From contig JAEUHN010000031.1 of NCBI GenBank assembly GCA_016795365.1, positions 62,001-126,000 on the forward strand: a stretch of 64,000 nt of DNA, in the 5' to 3' direction. This document shows positions 15,767 to 30,427 of the stretch, piece after piece (positions within the stretch are counted from its first letter, which is position 1; each line of letters opens with the position of its first letter). Below the pieces are notes generated by a model, which was not told where the DNA came from, ran no database searches, and was given only the letters and a program-made list of their open reading frames with translations. A program made the translations under genes and the position numbers. Source of the stretch: Verrucomicrobiaceae bacterium (GTDB taxonomy: Bacteria > Verrucomicrobiota > Verrucomicrobiia > Verrucomicrobiales > Verrucomicrobiaceae).

Positions 15767-17355
15767 ACAACGCCCTCTCTTGGTTCACTGTCCGTCCGAT
15801 TCGCTGGTGTTGGCGTTTCATCTGGAGCCGCCGCATGATCTGGACGGTCGTGTGTTTCGCGTCGCTCCTCATGCTCTACTACCAGTGGGAAAACTGGCGC
15901 GGCGCCAAAGAGCTGGCCGTGGAGCTTCAGCGACTCGTCGCGCGCATCGGCACGGACAATCCGGTCGAGCTGGCACAGGGTCCCGTGTCTGACGCTAGGA
16001 ACTACTTTTCCAATCCCCTGATCCAGAGCTGGGCGAAGCCACTTGCGTTGGAATACGTTCCCCCGTCGAAGGGCATGAACTCGGACTGGGAAATGAAACC
16101 GGGCATACCGGGCAGCCGTGCGGTGTTATACACCTTCCCTGCCCAGGCCATCAAACCCGCGTGCGTCGTGGACGGCGAGAAGCTTGTCCAGGAAGGCAAT
16201 GGCCTGTCGCGTCTGAACCTGGAAGAGTGGGTTAAGGATCGCGCAAATGCGGGTGAACCGATCCCAGCAGGCAAGTCACCTTTGCAAGAACTCACACAAA
16301 GCCTTGGCGATGCCAATGGTCTCCTGGCCAAGCTGGCTGTCGGACTTGACCGGCCCTATTCACGGATGATTCCTAGCGACCGTGAACTTGCCGAGTTGGA
16401 GACGCGCGACCCATCCGTGTTCCAAGTGAATCAGGTCCGTGACGCCCTGGACTTCATGCGCTACCTCGACCTGCATCTGCGCACGGCAGCGATGAACGGC
16501 GACGCAGACAAGGTCCGAATCGTCACCGCGATCATGCTGCGAATCGCCGAGGCCATGGCAGGACGCCGTTTGATGGGCTCTATCATGTCGATGGCCACTC
16601 ATGAAGTGACGTTCAGCGCGCTTCACGAAGCCTTGGGCTATGGTGTTTGGACCGATGCGTCGCTGGTTGAGCTGACTCGCAAGCTCAGTGCTATGGACGA
16701 TCTGAAACTACTCGAAAGAGGGCTGGCAGAGGAGACCCTATGCGTATCGCACCTCATGACCTATTTCAGAGAACGCAATGGCTCAGGTTTCGCACAGATG
16801 CTGGCGGATCGATTACATCATCACCCTTCACGACCGGATCTCCTTCTCGACCTGTGGGCACGCATTCCGCCTCGGGGCTGGCTGGACGCCAGCCATGCTT
16901 TCGTCATTCGCGAGATGGTCTTCTTCATGGGACCGAAGAGTGAAAATTCCTGGCTGGAGGGTGCCCGGCGTAGCATGCAATTGAAACGCGATTGCGCGAC
17001 ACAGTGGCGAACGCTGCGTCCACTGCTCGGGACCGCCGTCGTATCGAATTACGGGGATATCTGGGGCGATGCTGCGTGGACTTTATTCCATCGCCGATGC
17101 GTGATTGCTGGTTGTGCGCTGGAGCGCTATCGCCTTCGCACCGGCGGCTACCCGACCTCTCTGGACAAGGCCAAAGCTGAACTCTCCACGCTCAAGGTCA
17201 GCGATCCGGCAAGGCCCGATCAATCGCTTTGTTATCGTCGCGATGCGGATGGCTACAGTTTGTGGTCCGTTGGCCCGGATCAGAAGGACGATGGCGGCTC
17301 CGCTGAATTTGACTGGCTGTGGCGCATCAAGCATGTGGCTTCTCCCAAACCATGA
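15763..17355 (+). CDS. Membrane-anchored protein with pseudopilin-like C-terminus (paralog A)
   Basis: 530 residues. A short basic N-terminus (RPIRWCWRFIWSRRM) leads into one transmembrane helix (IWTVVCFASLLMLYYQW), so most of the protein should be periplasmic. The long middle is helical with no family I recognise. The last 75 residues, RCVIAGCALERYRLRTGGYP, then TSLDKAKAELS and LWSVGPDQKDDGG, resemble the C-terminal part of type II secretion major pseudopilins (YP near a helix, then an LxSxGxDG-type loop that binds calcium in GspG). It is clearly homologous along its length to the next gene, indicating tandem duplication. It is translationally coupled on both sides by ATGA overlaps. Confidence 0.82.
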   Translation: MNNALSWFTVRPIRWCWRFIWSRRMIWTVVCFASLLMLYYQWENWRGAKELAVELQRLVARIGTDNPVELAQGPVSDARNYFSNPLIQSWAKPLALEYVPPSKGMNSDWEMKPGIPGSRAVLYTFPAQAIKPACVVDGEKLVQEGNGLSRLNLEEWVKDRANAGEPIPAGKSPLQELTQSLGDANGLLAKLAVGLDRPYSRMIPSDRELAELETRDPSVFQVNQVRDALDFMRYLDLHLRTAAMNGDADKVRIVTAIMLRIAEAMAGRRLMGSIMSMATHEVTFSALHEALGYGVWTDASLVELTRKLSAMDDLKLLERGLAEETLCVSHLMTYFRERNGSGFAQMLADRLHHHPSRPDLLLDLWARIPPRGWLDASHAFVIREMVFFMGPKSENSWLEGARRSMQLKRDCATQWRTLRPLLGTAVVSNYGDIWGDAAWTLFHRRCVIAGCALERYRLRTGGYPTSLDKAKAELSTLKVSDPARPDQSLCYRRDADGYSLWSVGPDQKDDGGSAEFDWLWRIKHVASPKP

Positions 17356-28302: not shown

Positions 28303-28752
28303 TCAGATGTCAAACTGGGCCACGGAACGCGCTTGTTCCTTCTCGATCACTTCGGCGATCGTGATGCCGTGGAGGCGTGCATTGAACTCATCGCGCACGC
28401 CGGCGAGCGTCTGCCCGAGCGAGCAAGCCCCCATGATGCCGCATTCACAAGCCGACTGCTGGTGAGCCACGGCGGAGCAGGGGATCGGTTCGGCGGGTCC
28501 GTCCACCTGCTCGATGATGGTCCCAATGCTGATGCGTTTCGCAGGCACCGCGAGCTGGTAGCCGCCGCCCACGCCACGCTTGCTGCGAAGGATGCCGCCG
28601 TTCTTCAGCACGAGAAGAATCTGCTCCAGGAACTTCAAAGGGATGCGCTCGCTGGTGGCGATCTCCTGGATGGAAAACGTCCGCCCCGCTGTGTCGCGAG
28701 CCATGGCCACGACAGCGCGCAGGGCATATTCCGCTTTCTTGGAGAGTTTCAT
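28303..28752 (-). CDS. Rrf2-family transcriptional regulator
   Basis: 149 residues. A winged helix-turn-helix covers residues 1-75 (MKLSKKAEYALRAVVAMA, IPLKFLEQILLVLKNGGIL, SKRGVGGGYQLA), the Rrf2 signature. The central segment PCSAVAHQQSACECGIMGAC holds four cysteines suited to a [Fe-S] cluster, with spacing unlike IscR (10, 2 and 6 rather than two equal gaps). It probably senses iron-sulfur status, redox state or NO. No isc or suf genes are nearby. Its start is 40 bases from the heptad array, so its own promoter region contains or abuts the repeats. Confidence 0.9.
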   Translation of the reverse strand: MKLSKKAEYALRAVVAMARDTAGRTFSIQEIATSERIPLKFLEQILLVLKNGGILRSKRGVGGGYQLAVPAKRISIGTIIEQVDGPAEPIPCSAVAHQQSACECGIMGACSLGQTLAGVRDEFNARLHGITIAEVIEKEQARSVAQFDI

Positions 28753-28791: not shown

Positions 28792-28994
28792 CTCTGTTCT
28801 CGGTTCAGGGTTCTCGGTTCTCTGTTCTCTGTTCTCTGTTCTCGGTTCTCGGTTCTCGGTTCTCGGTTCTCGGTTCTCGGTTCTCGGTTCTCGGTTCTCA
28901 GCTCCAAGCTCCAAGCTCCAAGCTCCAAGCTCCAAGCTCCATGCTCCATGCTCCATGCTCCATGCTCCATGCTCCATGCTCCATGCTCCCAGTT
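28792..28994. repeat. Heptanucleotide tandem array, 29 units in three blocks
   Basis: The array keeps perfect period 7 for 203 bases. The first block mixes CTCTGTT, CTCGGTT and one CAGGGTT (28792-28840), then eight CTCGGTT (28841-28896). A transition unit CTCAGCT leads to five CCAAGCT (28904-28938) and seven CCATGCT (28939-28987). Blocks differ in sequence but not in phase. Period 7 keeps all frames open, so predicted proteins across it are artefacts. Confidence 0.95.
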
Positions 28995-29023
28995 GATCAA
29001 CCTCCCGGTGGACAAGCCCGCCC

Positions 29024-29058
29024 TGTGAACCGAGAACTGCGAACCCCGAACCGAGAAC
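29024..29058. repeat. Inverted heptads facing the main array
   Basis: Five 7-base units, TGTGAAC, CGAGAAC, TGCGAAC, CCCGAAC, CGAGAAC, are on the minus strand the GTTCTCG/GTTCGGG-type units of the first block of the array. They end 7 bases before the rarA start. The two arms could pair as a long imperfect hairpin with the CCAAGCT/CCATGCT blocks in the loop. Confidence 0.8.
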
Positions 29059-29065
29059 TCACCGC

Positions 29066-30427
29066 ATGTCCGATCTTTTCCAAGCTCCCACTGCTGCGCA
29101 GAGCGCCGGGTTGACCAGCGCGATTCCGCTGGCCGCACGGATGCGTCCGCGCACGATGGCTGAGTATGGCGGACAAGGACACATCCTCGGACAGGGCAAG
29201 TTGTTGCGCCGGGCCATTGAAGCGGATCGCTTTTCATCGCTGATCTTCTACGGACCTCCAGGCGTGGGCAAAACCACGCTCGCACAGATCATCGGGCATG
29301 AAACGAAGTCGCGATTCGTGCAGCTCAGCGGTGTCGAGAGCAGTGTGGCAGACATTCGTGCAGCAGCGGAGGCCGCCTCGCAATTGCAGCGCCTGCATGG
29401 GCAGACCACTATCTTGTTTGTCGATGAGATTCATCGCTTCAACAAGGCGCAGCAGGACGTGCTCCTGCCCCACATCGAGCGCGGCACCGTGCGGTTCATC
29501 GGAGCCACGACGCACAATCCGTTTTTCTATGTCAATGCGCCACTGGTGAGCCGCTCGCAAATCTTCACGCTGGAACCCCTGACTCAGGCGGACCTCGAGT
29601 CGCTCATTGATCGAGCCATCAGCGATGAAGAGCGAGGCCTCGGCAAAGCCAGCATCAGTATCACACCCGAAGCGCGTGCGCACCTTGCCACCATCGCTGA
29701 CGGTGATGCGCGCAAATGCCTCACCGCACTGGAACTCGCAGCCCTCAGCACCACGCCCAACGACGCGGGCACCATCGTGATCGACCTCGCCGTGGCGGAG
29801 GAGTCCGCCCAGCGCAAAGCCATTGTCTATGATGGTGATGGCGACGCGCACTACGATACGATCAGTGCCTTCATCAAGTCCATGCGCGCCAGTGATCCTG
29901 ATGCCGCGCTCTACTGGCTGGCCAAGATGCTCTACGCTGGCGAGGACATTCGGTTCATCGCTCGACGCATCGTGATCGCCGCCAGCGAAGATGTAGGCAT
30001 GGCGGATTCGAATGCATTGCGTGTGGCTATCGCGGCCCAGCAGGCTGTCGAGTTCATCGGTATGCCAGAGGCCCGAATCCCGCTTGCCCATGCCACCGTT
30101 TACATCGCCACCGCGCCCAAGAGCAATCGCGCCTACCTTGCCATTGATGCCGCGCTCGATGATGTGAAGAACGGACGCACCCTCCCCGTGCCCAAGGCGT
30201 TGAGGAGCAAGTTCAAAGGCAGCAAGCAGCTCGGCCACGGCGAAGGCTACGTCTATCCGCACGACACCGAAGGCGGCTTCGTCCCTCAGCGCTACCTCCC
30301 CGCCGGTGAAGGCCGCGTCTATTACGAGCCCACCTCCAATGGCCTGGAAGCCCGCATCAAGGAACGCCTCGATCACTGGCGCCAGCAGTGGGAAGCAGCG
30401 GAATCAAAAGGGTCGGGCAAGGCCTAG
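29066..30427 (+). CDS. rarA: Replication-associated recombination protein A (AAA+ ATPase)
   Basis: 453 residues. The N-terminus carries a clamp-binding-like motif (MSDLFQ) and then RMRPRTMAEYGGQGHILGQG. The AAA+ core has Walker A GPPGVGKTTLAQ, Walker B ILFVDEIHRF, sensor 1 GATTHNP and an arginine finger region. The C-terminal MgsA/WHIP-type domain includes SDPDAALYWLAKMLYAGED and RRIVIAASEDVGMADSNAL. RarA acts at stalled replication forks, with SSB and the loader/clamp system. The ATG follows the inverted heptads with no clear Shine-Dalgarno, since the upstream sequence is repeat. Confidence 0.95.
   Translation: MSDLFQAPTAAQSAGLTSAIPLAARMRPRTMAEYGGQGHILGQGKLLRRAIEADRFSSLIFYGPPGVGKTTLAQIIGHETKSRFVQLSGVESSVADIRAAAEAASQLQRLHGQTTILFVDEIHRFNKAQQDVLLPHIERGTVRFIGATTHNPFFYVNAPLVSRSQIFTLEPLTQADLESLIDRAISDEERGLGKASISITPEARAHLATIADGDARKCLTALELAALSTTPNDAGTIVIDLAVAEESAQRKAIVYDGDGDAHYDTISAFIKSMRASDPDAALYWLAKMLYAGEDIRFIARRIVIAASEDVGMADSNALRVAIAAQQAVEFIGMPEARIPLAHATVYIATAPKSNRAYLAIDAALDDVKNGRTLPVPKALRSKFKGSKQLGHGEGYVYPHDTEGGFVPQRYLPAGEGRVYYEPTSNGLEARIKERLDHWRQQWEAAESKGSGKA

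Follow-up and report, generated by a model that had tools for sequence, protein, structure and literature searches.

The locus in front of rarA raises the question of how a long run of seven-base repeats, followed by an inverted arm, came to lie between two divergent genes, and whether it has a role in their expression. We addressed it in a 64,000-nucleotide stretch of Verrucomicrobiaceae DNA (the window), in the genome to which this belongs (G000, a draft in 55 contigs, designated C below) and in related genomes, among which G001, a single draft of the same genus, served as the sister for comparison.

The array consists of 29 heptads (28792-28994) and is free of indels. Within it, a base equals the base seven positions further on in 92% of cases, compared with 18-26% at other spacings (4-6 and 8-11). 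Its first block comprises ten exact CTCGGTT heptads, four CTCTGTT, one CAGGGTT and one CTCAGCT; two blocks of other words and a final diverged heptad follow (Table 1). The third-block word, read as AGCATGG, also forms the arms of a palindrome at C3:254167-254286 of the same genome. The right arm, CTGTGAACCGAGAACTGCGAACCCCGAACCGAGAAC, retains 21 of 29 period-7 matches, shares with the array an exact inverted match of 12 bases and stops seven bases before the rarA start codon. Array, spacer and right arm together take up 267 of the 313 bases of the gap from which rrf2 and rarA diverge. The original prediction of a heptad array with inverted copies upstream of rarA, filling most of this gap, is therefore borne out.

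Table 1. Features of the rrf2-rarA locus and copies of the palindrome inside genes (window positions unless a contig or locus is named).
Feature	Position	Strand	Remarks
Rrf2-like regulator gene	28303..28752	-	149 aa; left neighbour
Block 1, CTCGGTT-type heptads	28792..28903	+	n = 16; reads GTTC-N3; overgrown left arm (preferred reading)
Block 2, CCAAGCT heptads	28904..28938	+	n = 5
Block 3, CCATGCT heptads	28939..28987	+	n = 7
Final diverged heptad, CCCAGTT	28988..28994	+	n = 1
Non-repetitive inter-arm spacer	28995..29022	+	28 bases
Right arm, inverted heptads	29023..29058	+	n = about 5; GAAC every 7 bases; ends GAGAAC
rarA/mgsA-type AAA+ ATPase gene	29066..30427	+	453 aa; right neighbour
mnmA with in-frame palindrome	G000 C41:67403-68560 (L202:7403-8560)		relatives L313-L340
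UvrA copy, residues 442-474	G000 C27 (L205:10891-10985)		in frame
Double-UvrA linker copy	L212:10503-10632		in frame

Such arrays are a property of the genome rather than of this gap. Three contigs read whole (C1, C3 and C28; 852 kb) were picked through matches to an array query, which biases the density of arrays and leaves the comparison between periods fair. At a strict threshold all their arrays had period 7 or a multiple of it, apart from one period-22 match; periods 3-6 and 8-13 yielded none at the period-7 threshold, nor did a Markov simulation. Since period 7 alone gives arrays and the simulation gives none, a chance origin of the rarA array is excluded, and long tandem arrays in the sampled DNA are almost all of period 7. 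In 1.25 Mb, a 4-base word recurred three times at a fixed step of 7 in 141 cases, and at steps 5, 8, 10 and 11 in 14, 29, 33 and 24; counts comparable to that at 7 were confined to steps 6 and 9 (150 and 123), which are codon steps. The rarA array thus has the marks of the heptanucleotide long simple repeats (LSSR) of bacteria, being a tandem seven-base unit longer than expected for the genome, with a unit number that varies between close relatives. Four successive GAACCGA units occur in more than 116 stretches across many phyla, and similar arrays are present in isolate genomes, e.g. of Brevifollis, Paenibacillus and Streptomyces. We do not claim a universal preference for GAACCGA, the reversed word being as common in viral contigs (6 vs 9 stretches). 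Querying plasmid and phage sequences with the array by BLAST gave no matches, a test that low-complexity filtering makes a weak one.

Comparison with the sister indicates how these arrays change. The orthologous C41 arrays of G000 and G001 share the same word and, at 54 and 61 bp, are exactly one 7-bp unit apart in length. At C3 and C11, G001 carries short degenerate heptad runs where G000 has multi-block arrays of about 200 and 250 bp, and the C20b array has no counterpart at the orthologous site. The C27 array (C27:94856-94993) is replaced in G001 by a different repeat, and the C1 array (C1:208270-208449) coincides exactly with a breakpoint of synteny between G000 and G001. The G001 orthologue of the C27 site (L225) bears an inverted repeat composed of the words CAGGATT/ATCCTG, as though this place were permissive for repeats; neither of the sister junctions matching the C1 array (G001 C150 and C53) shows a clear heptad array. 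At C41 (L202, about 16650-16740) a REP-like palindrome (GGAGTTCAGCCTTCAGGCTG...CAGGCTAAAGCCTGAACTCC) adjoins the heptad array; it is missing at the sister's orthologous site, and similar copies are found elsewhere in the sister.

Junctions between blocks of different words are equally informative. We compared 93 of them, drawn from G000 as well as from loci in many phyla: a single in-register substitution separates the words at 45 junctions and two do so at 15, together 60, compared with about 3.5% for random unit pairs. If a unit first acquires a substitution and is then multiplied in steps of seven, its sequence changes while its length stays constant, which accounts for what is seen. The original prediction of copying in 7-base steps is supported; the one-unit difference at C41 points the same way. 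Length steps of seven together with in-register drift fit replication slippage. Some block junctions, however, show no more similarity than random pairs and must have originated in another way.

The inverted arm in front of rarA is also far from unique. A scan of sampled G000 DNA with the GAACYGA word in both orientations, counting a locus as paired when both its arms fell within 150 bp, recovered at least nine loci with a left GTTC-N3 and a right N3-GAAC arm, besides about 15 with one recognisable arm only. In 9/9 paired loci the CTCGGTT arm precedes the GAACCGA arm (chance probability 0.002). Paired copies mostly span about 80-130 bp around unrelated spacers, and most start with GTTCTC and have GAGAAC at or near their end; the rarA copy has the same termini. 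Folded alone, the other copies formed a hairpin in 8/8 cases, and in seven of these no shuffle folded as well. That the arms of the C30, C15 and C1:294648 copies are true inverted copies follows from their register scores, which are far better for the palindromic register than for one shifted by 7 (26.5 vs 14.5, 21 vs 10.5 and 23.5 vs 8). For the rarA copy, whose inverted arms can pair as in heptad stems of the cyanobacterial type, the registers nearly tie (23.5 vs 22 for shifts of 7 or 14), and a single-palindrome origin of its two arms is not provable from that copy.

Palindromes are not tied to one word or to one genome. Other array words form them as well (AGCATGG, GAATGAC, GGATGAA and AAGAGCR). 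When inverted repeats of G000 were counted by arm period with a binomial test, a simple threshold being misleading for short arms, there were five of period 7 and one of period 8. The pattern of three GTTCN3 units, a spacer and three N3GAAC units occurs in 17/87 relatives, with about ten places in G024, and its reversed control in 0/87. Across relatives, the free triplets are complementary to only a slightly greater extent in true arm pairs than in swapped ones (0.56 vs 0.50, with 7/500 shuffles as good). The inverted arm that had been singled out at rarA is therefore real and recurrent. In G012, three palindromes (C1:194283-194392, 195830-195931 and 197224-197289; L383-L402) have arms phased by 8 (TGGAG-N3), so phased palindromes in the family are not confined to period 7. 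Another in G061 (C2:121200-121278; L363-L382) has arms phased by 11 with the core ACGCTAAT.

On these grounds we consider it fairly probable that the heptanucleotide repeat in front of rarA is hypervariable and corresponds to the overgrown left arm in one member of the dispersed inverted-repeat family (GTTC-N3)n-spacer-(N3-GAAC)n. Its components are directly seen: length changes in sevens, units drift in register, the array is absent from the sister's orthologous gap and paired-arm copies are common. The array would have grown by slippage, or by small duplications, during replication, and hairpin arms may make heptad DNA prone to such growth. Candidate routes by which palindromes come to occupy new sites are the copying of existing palindromes and local inverted duplication.

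Alternatively, the whole tract could have been born locally, from a chance seed that expanded by slippage, its inverted part arising by a local template switch and nothing being inserted or copied in. The sister offers possible starting points for such a course, with the degenerate runs at C3 and C11 as seeds and, in its rrf2-rarA gap, CCGAACACTGCACC immediately 5' of the start codon, which resembles the right arm. Births independent of one another should however draw on different words and show both arm orders, and the arm order is constant. Moreover, GAACCGA is present in 3/3 strong arrays of the 852 kb, which are not fully independent given the choice of contigs by array query, and GAACYGA loci are numerous throughout the genome. 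We therefore regard a purely local birth as rather unlikely.

Copies of the palindrome inside genes bear on another possibility. As judged from open reading frames, in-frame copies are present in MnmA, UvrA, a double-UvrA linker, a B12-binding radical-SAM protein, a U32-type peptidase (identified by eye from the sequence) and a hydantoinase/oxoprolinase; gene names come partly from Pfam, and the comparison with homologues covered MnmA and UvrA. In MnmA, the loop between GHYAR and LRG..NKDQ contains different period-7 palindromes in G000/G001, G024, G011 and G005, i.e. at one site in four genera, and is short in G008, G009, G010, G016, G020, G023 and others. The UvrA element is also present in G001; judging from match coordinates only, about 25 residues are missing exactly there in G010, G013, G017 and G018.

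A mobile palindromic element of the MITE, REP or Rickettsia palindromic element (RPE) kind, moved by a transposase and subsequently grown at rarA, would explain these in-frame copies with empty sites in relatives, as well as the common termini GTTCTC...GAGAAC of dispersed copies. Like RPEs, the MnmA and UvrA copies are in-frame palindromes absent from homologues (the rarA copy is intergenic). Against such an element, no target-site duplication was found in 11 copies beyond a 4-base word in one, common termini notwithstanding, and neither end of these 11 carries the GTAG or CGTC tag of REPs. Spacers are unrelated, and only the phase and the core are common to copies, where RPEs have a conserved element of about 150 bp. 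No fixed element sequence can be defined, because other words form the same kind of palindrome. Movement of this kind thus appears unlikely. Beyond the preferred reading of the rarA tract as an overgrown arm, we put forward more tentatively that Verrucomicrobiaceae palindromes form a distinct class, defined by the 7-base phase, the GTTC/GAAC core and free triplets, whose members enter genes in frame and whose arms overgrow to arrays. This would include independent entry into the same MnmA loop in four genera, and into UvrA.

The position of the array had suggested that it might control both rarA and rrf2, as a length-dependent hairpin or a protein-binding array in a divergent promoter region. 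It does fill the divergent gap almost up to the rarA start codon, and the transcript is predicted to form a long hairpin, with a folding z of -6.3 against shuffles; any repeat with an inverted copy nevertheless folds well, irrespective of role. The scan of the region found no sigma-70-type promoter and no terminator-like site, and the only Rfam match was sub-threshold (19.7 bits vs a gathering score of 86). The sister keeps the divergent gene pair (protein identity 97 and 99%), yet its gap of 146 bp has no period-7 signal (best score 10/21, null mean 9). In 16 other genomes where rrf2 adjoins rarA, period-7 scores range from 9 to 15 and no comparable array exists; the two that reach 15, G013 and G003, have much longer gaps. 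The orthologous gap is thus not occupied by a conserved regulatory array, and the same repeats lie beside and inside unrelated genes. The original prediction had named relatives without period 7 here as the observation that would undo it; such relatives are what we found, and the idea of a conserved element at this site has to be abandoned, while control of both genes is not supported. The rarA tract is probably a case of repeat growth and not a switch for its neighbours, and judging from the sequence comparison it would have no conserved role in their expression. Regulation in cis appears very unlikely. An assembly artefact is scarcely credible: the genome is a draft and repeats are hard to assemble, so that the count of units may be inaccurate, but unit variants occupy fixed places, the sister has an orthologous array differing by 7 bp and arrays of the same kind occur in the isolate genomes named above, and the existence of the array is hardly in doubt.

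These palindromes and arrays echo several known systems. Heptanucleotide repeats are reported to outnumber every other class of long simple repeat in the majority of bacterial genomes (Mrazek 2007, as cited in PMC4679880 and PMC4692102). The arrays here resemble bacterial LSSR, as these are summarised in the two citing papers, in the dominance of period 7, the mostly intergenic location, the few words per lineage and the length variation among close relatives. They differ in having several drifting words, often as one arm of an inverted pair, and Verrucomicrobiota are unmentioned in PMC4679880 and PMC4692102. Xanthomonas and Nostoc also have dispersed heptads whose runs vary in length, and inverted pairs occur in Xanthomonas (PMC4692102). 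Their words, GGGAATC and GGGGA(C/T)T, are likewise species-typical and variable in number and sometimes form inverted pairs; however, they form G-quadruplexes and are under-represented between divergent genes, whereas the rarA word is without G-runs of that kind and sits between such genes.

A known parallel to the paired arms is the P6b stem of the Nostoc trnL intron, in which heptad arms pair and replace each other (PMC4476775). Both show a two-arm heptad stem, replacement of one class by another at the same site and length steps of one heptad. The Nostoc stem belongs to a self-splicing intron, whereas the copies described here use other words and lie in intergenic and protein-gene sites. 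Palindromes in frame within genes are known from RPEs and REPs (PMC10969869, PMC3733652), with which our copies share insertion into conserved genes, repair genes included. RPEs, however, are families of about 150 bp with a conserved sequence, as opposed to the 7-base phase and GTTC core here, and the tag of REPs is absent here. Inverted paired arms with unit switching had been presented as apparently undescribed in this phylum. Such a claim holds at most for the phylum, unit switching and paired arms being on record in the Nostoc intron (PMC4476775) and inverted pairs in Xanthomonas (PMC4692102). We did not find in the open-licence literature the combination of phased heptad-arm palindromes in and between genes with some arms overgrown to arrays. 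What seems to be new is the generality of the inverted arm, which is no local oddity.

The bacterial preference for a tandem unit of exactly seven bases has awaited an explanation since 2007, and the size of the polymerase footprint is the sole mechanism proposed for this period in the literature cited here. At orthologous sites of G000 and G001, two close species, one can follow the birth of arrays, their growth and cases in which they remained short, and the heptads that make up arrays also build paired arms, in some cases inside conserved proteins. If the arrays are overgrown arms of palindromes, slippage alone no longer frames the problem, which then includes the origin and copying of phased hairpins, and proteins would gain in-frame loops through the insertion of repeats. 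Should the palindromes of Verrucomicrobiaceae indeed form a distinct class, protein-coding palindromes and heptad satellites would be one phenomenon.
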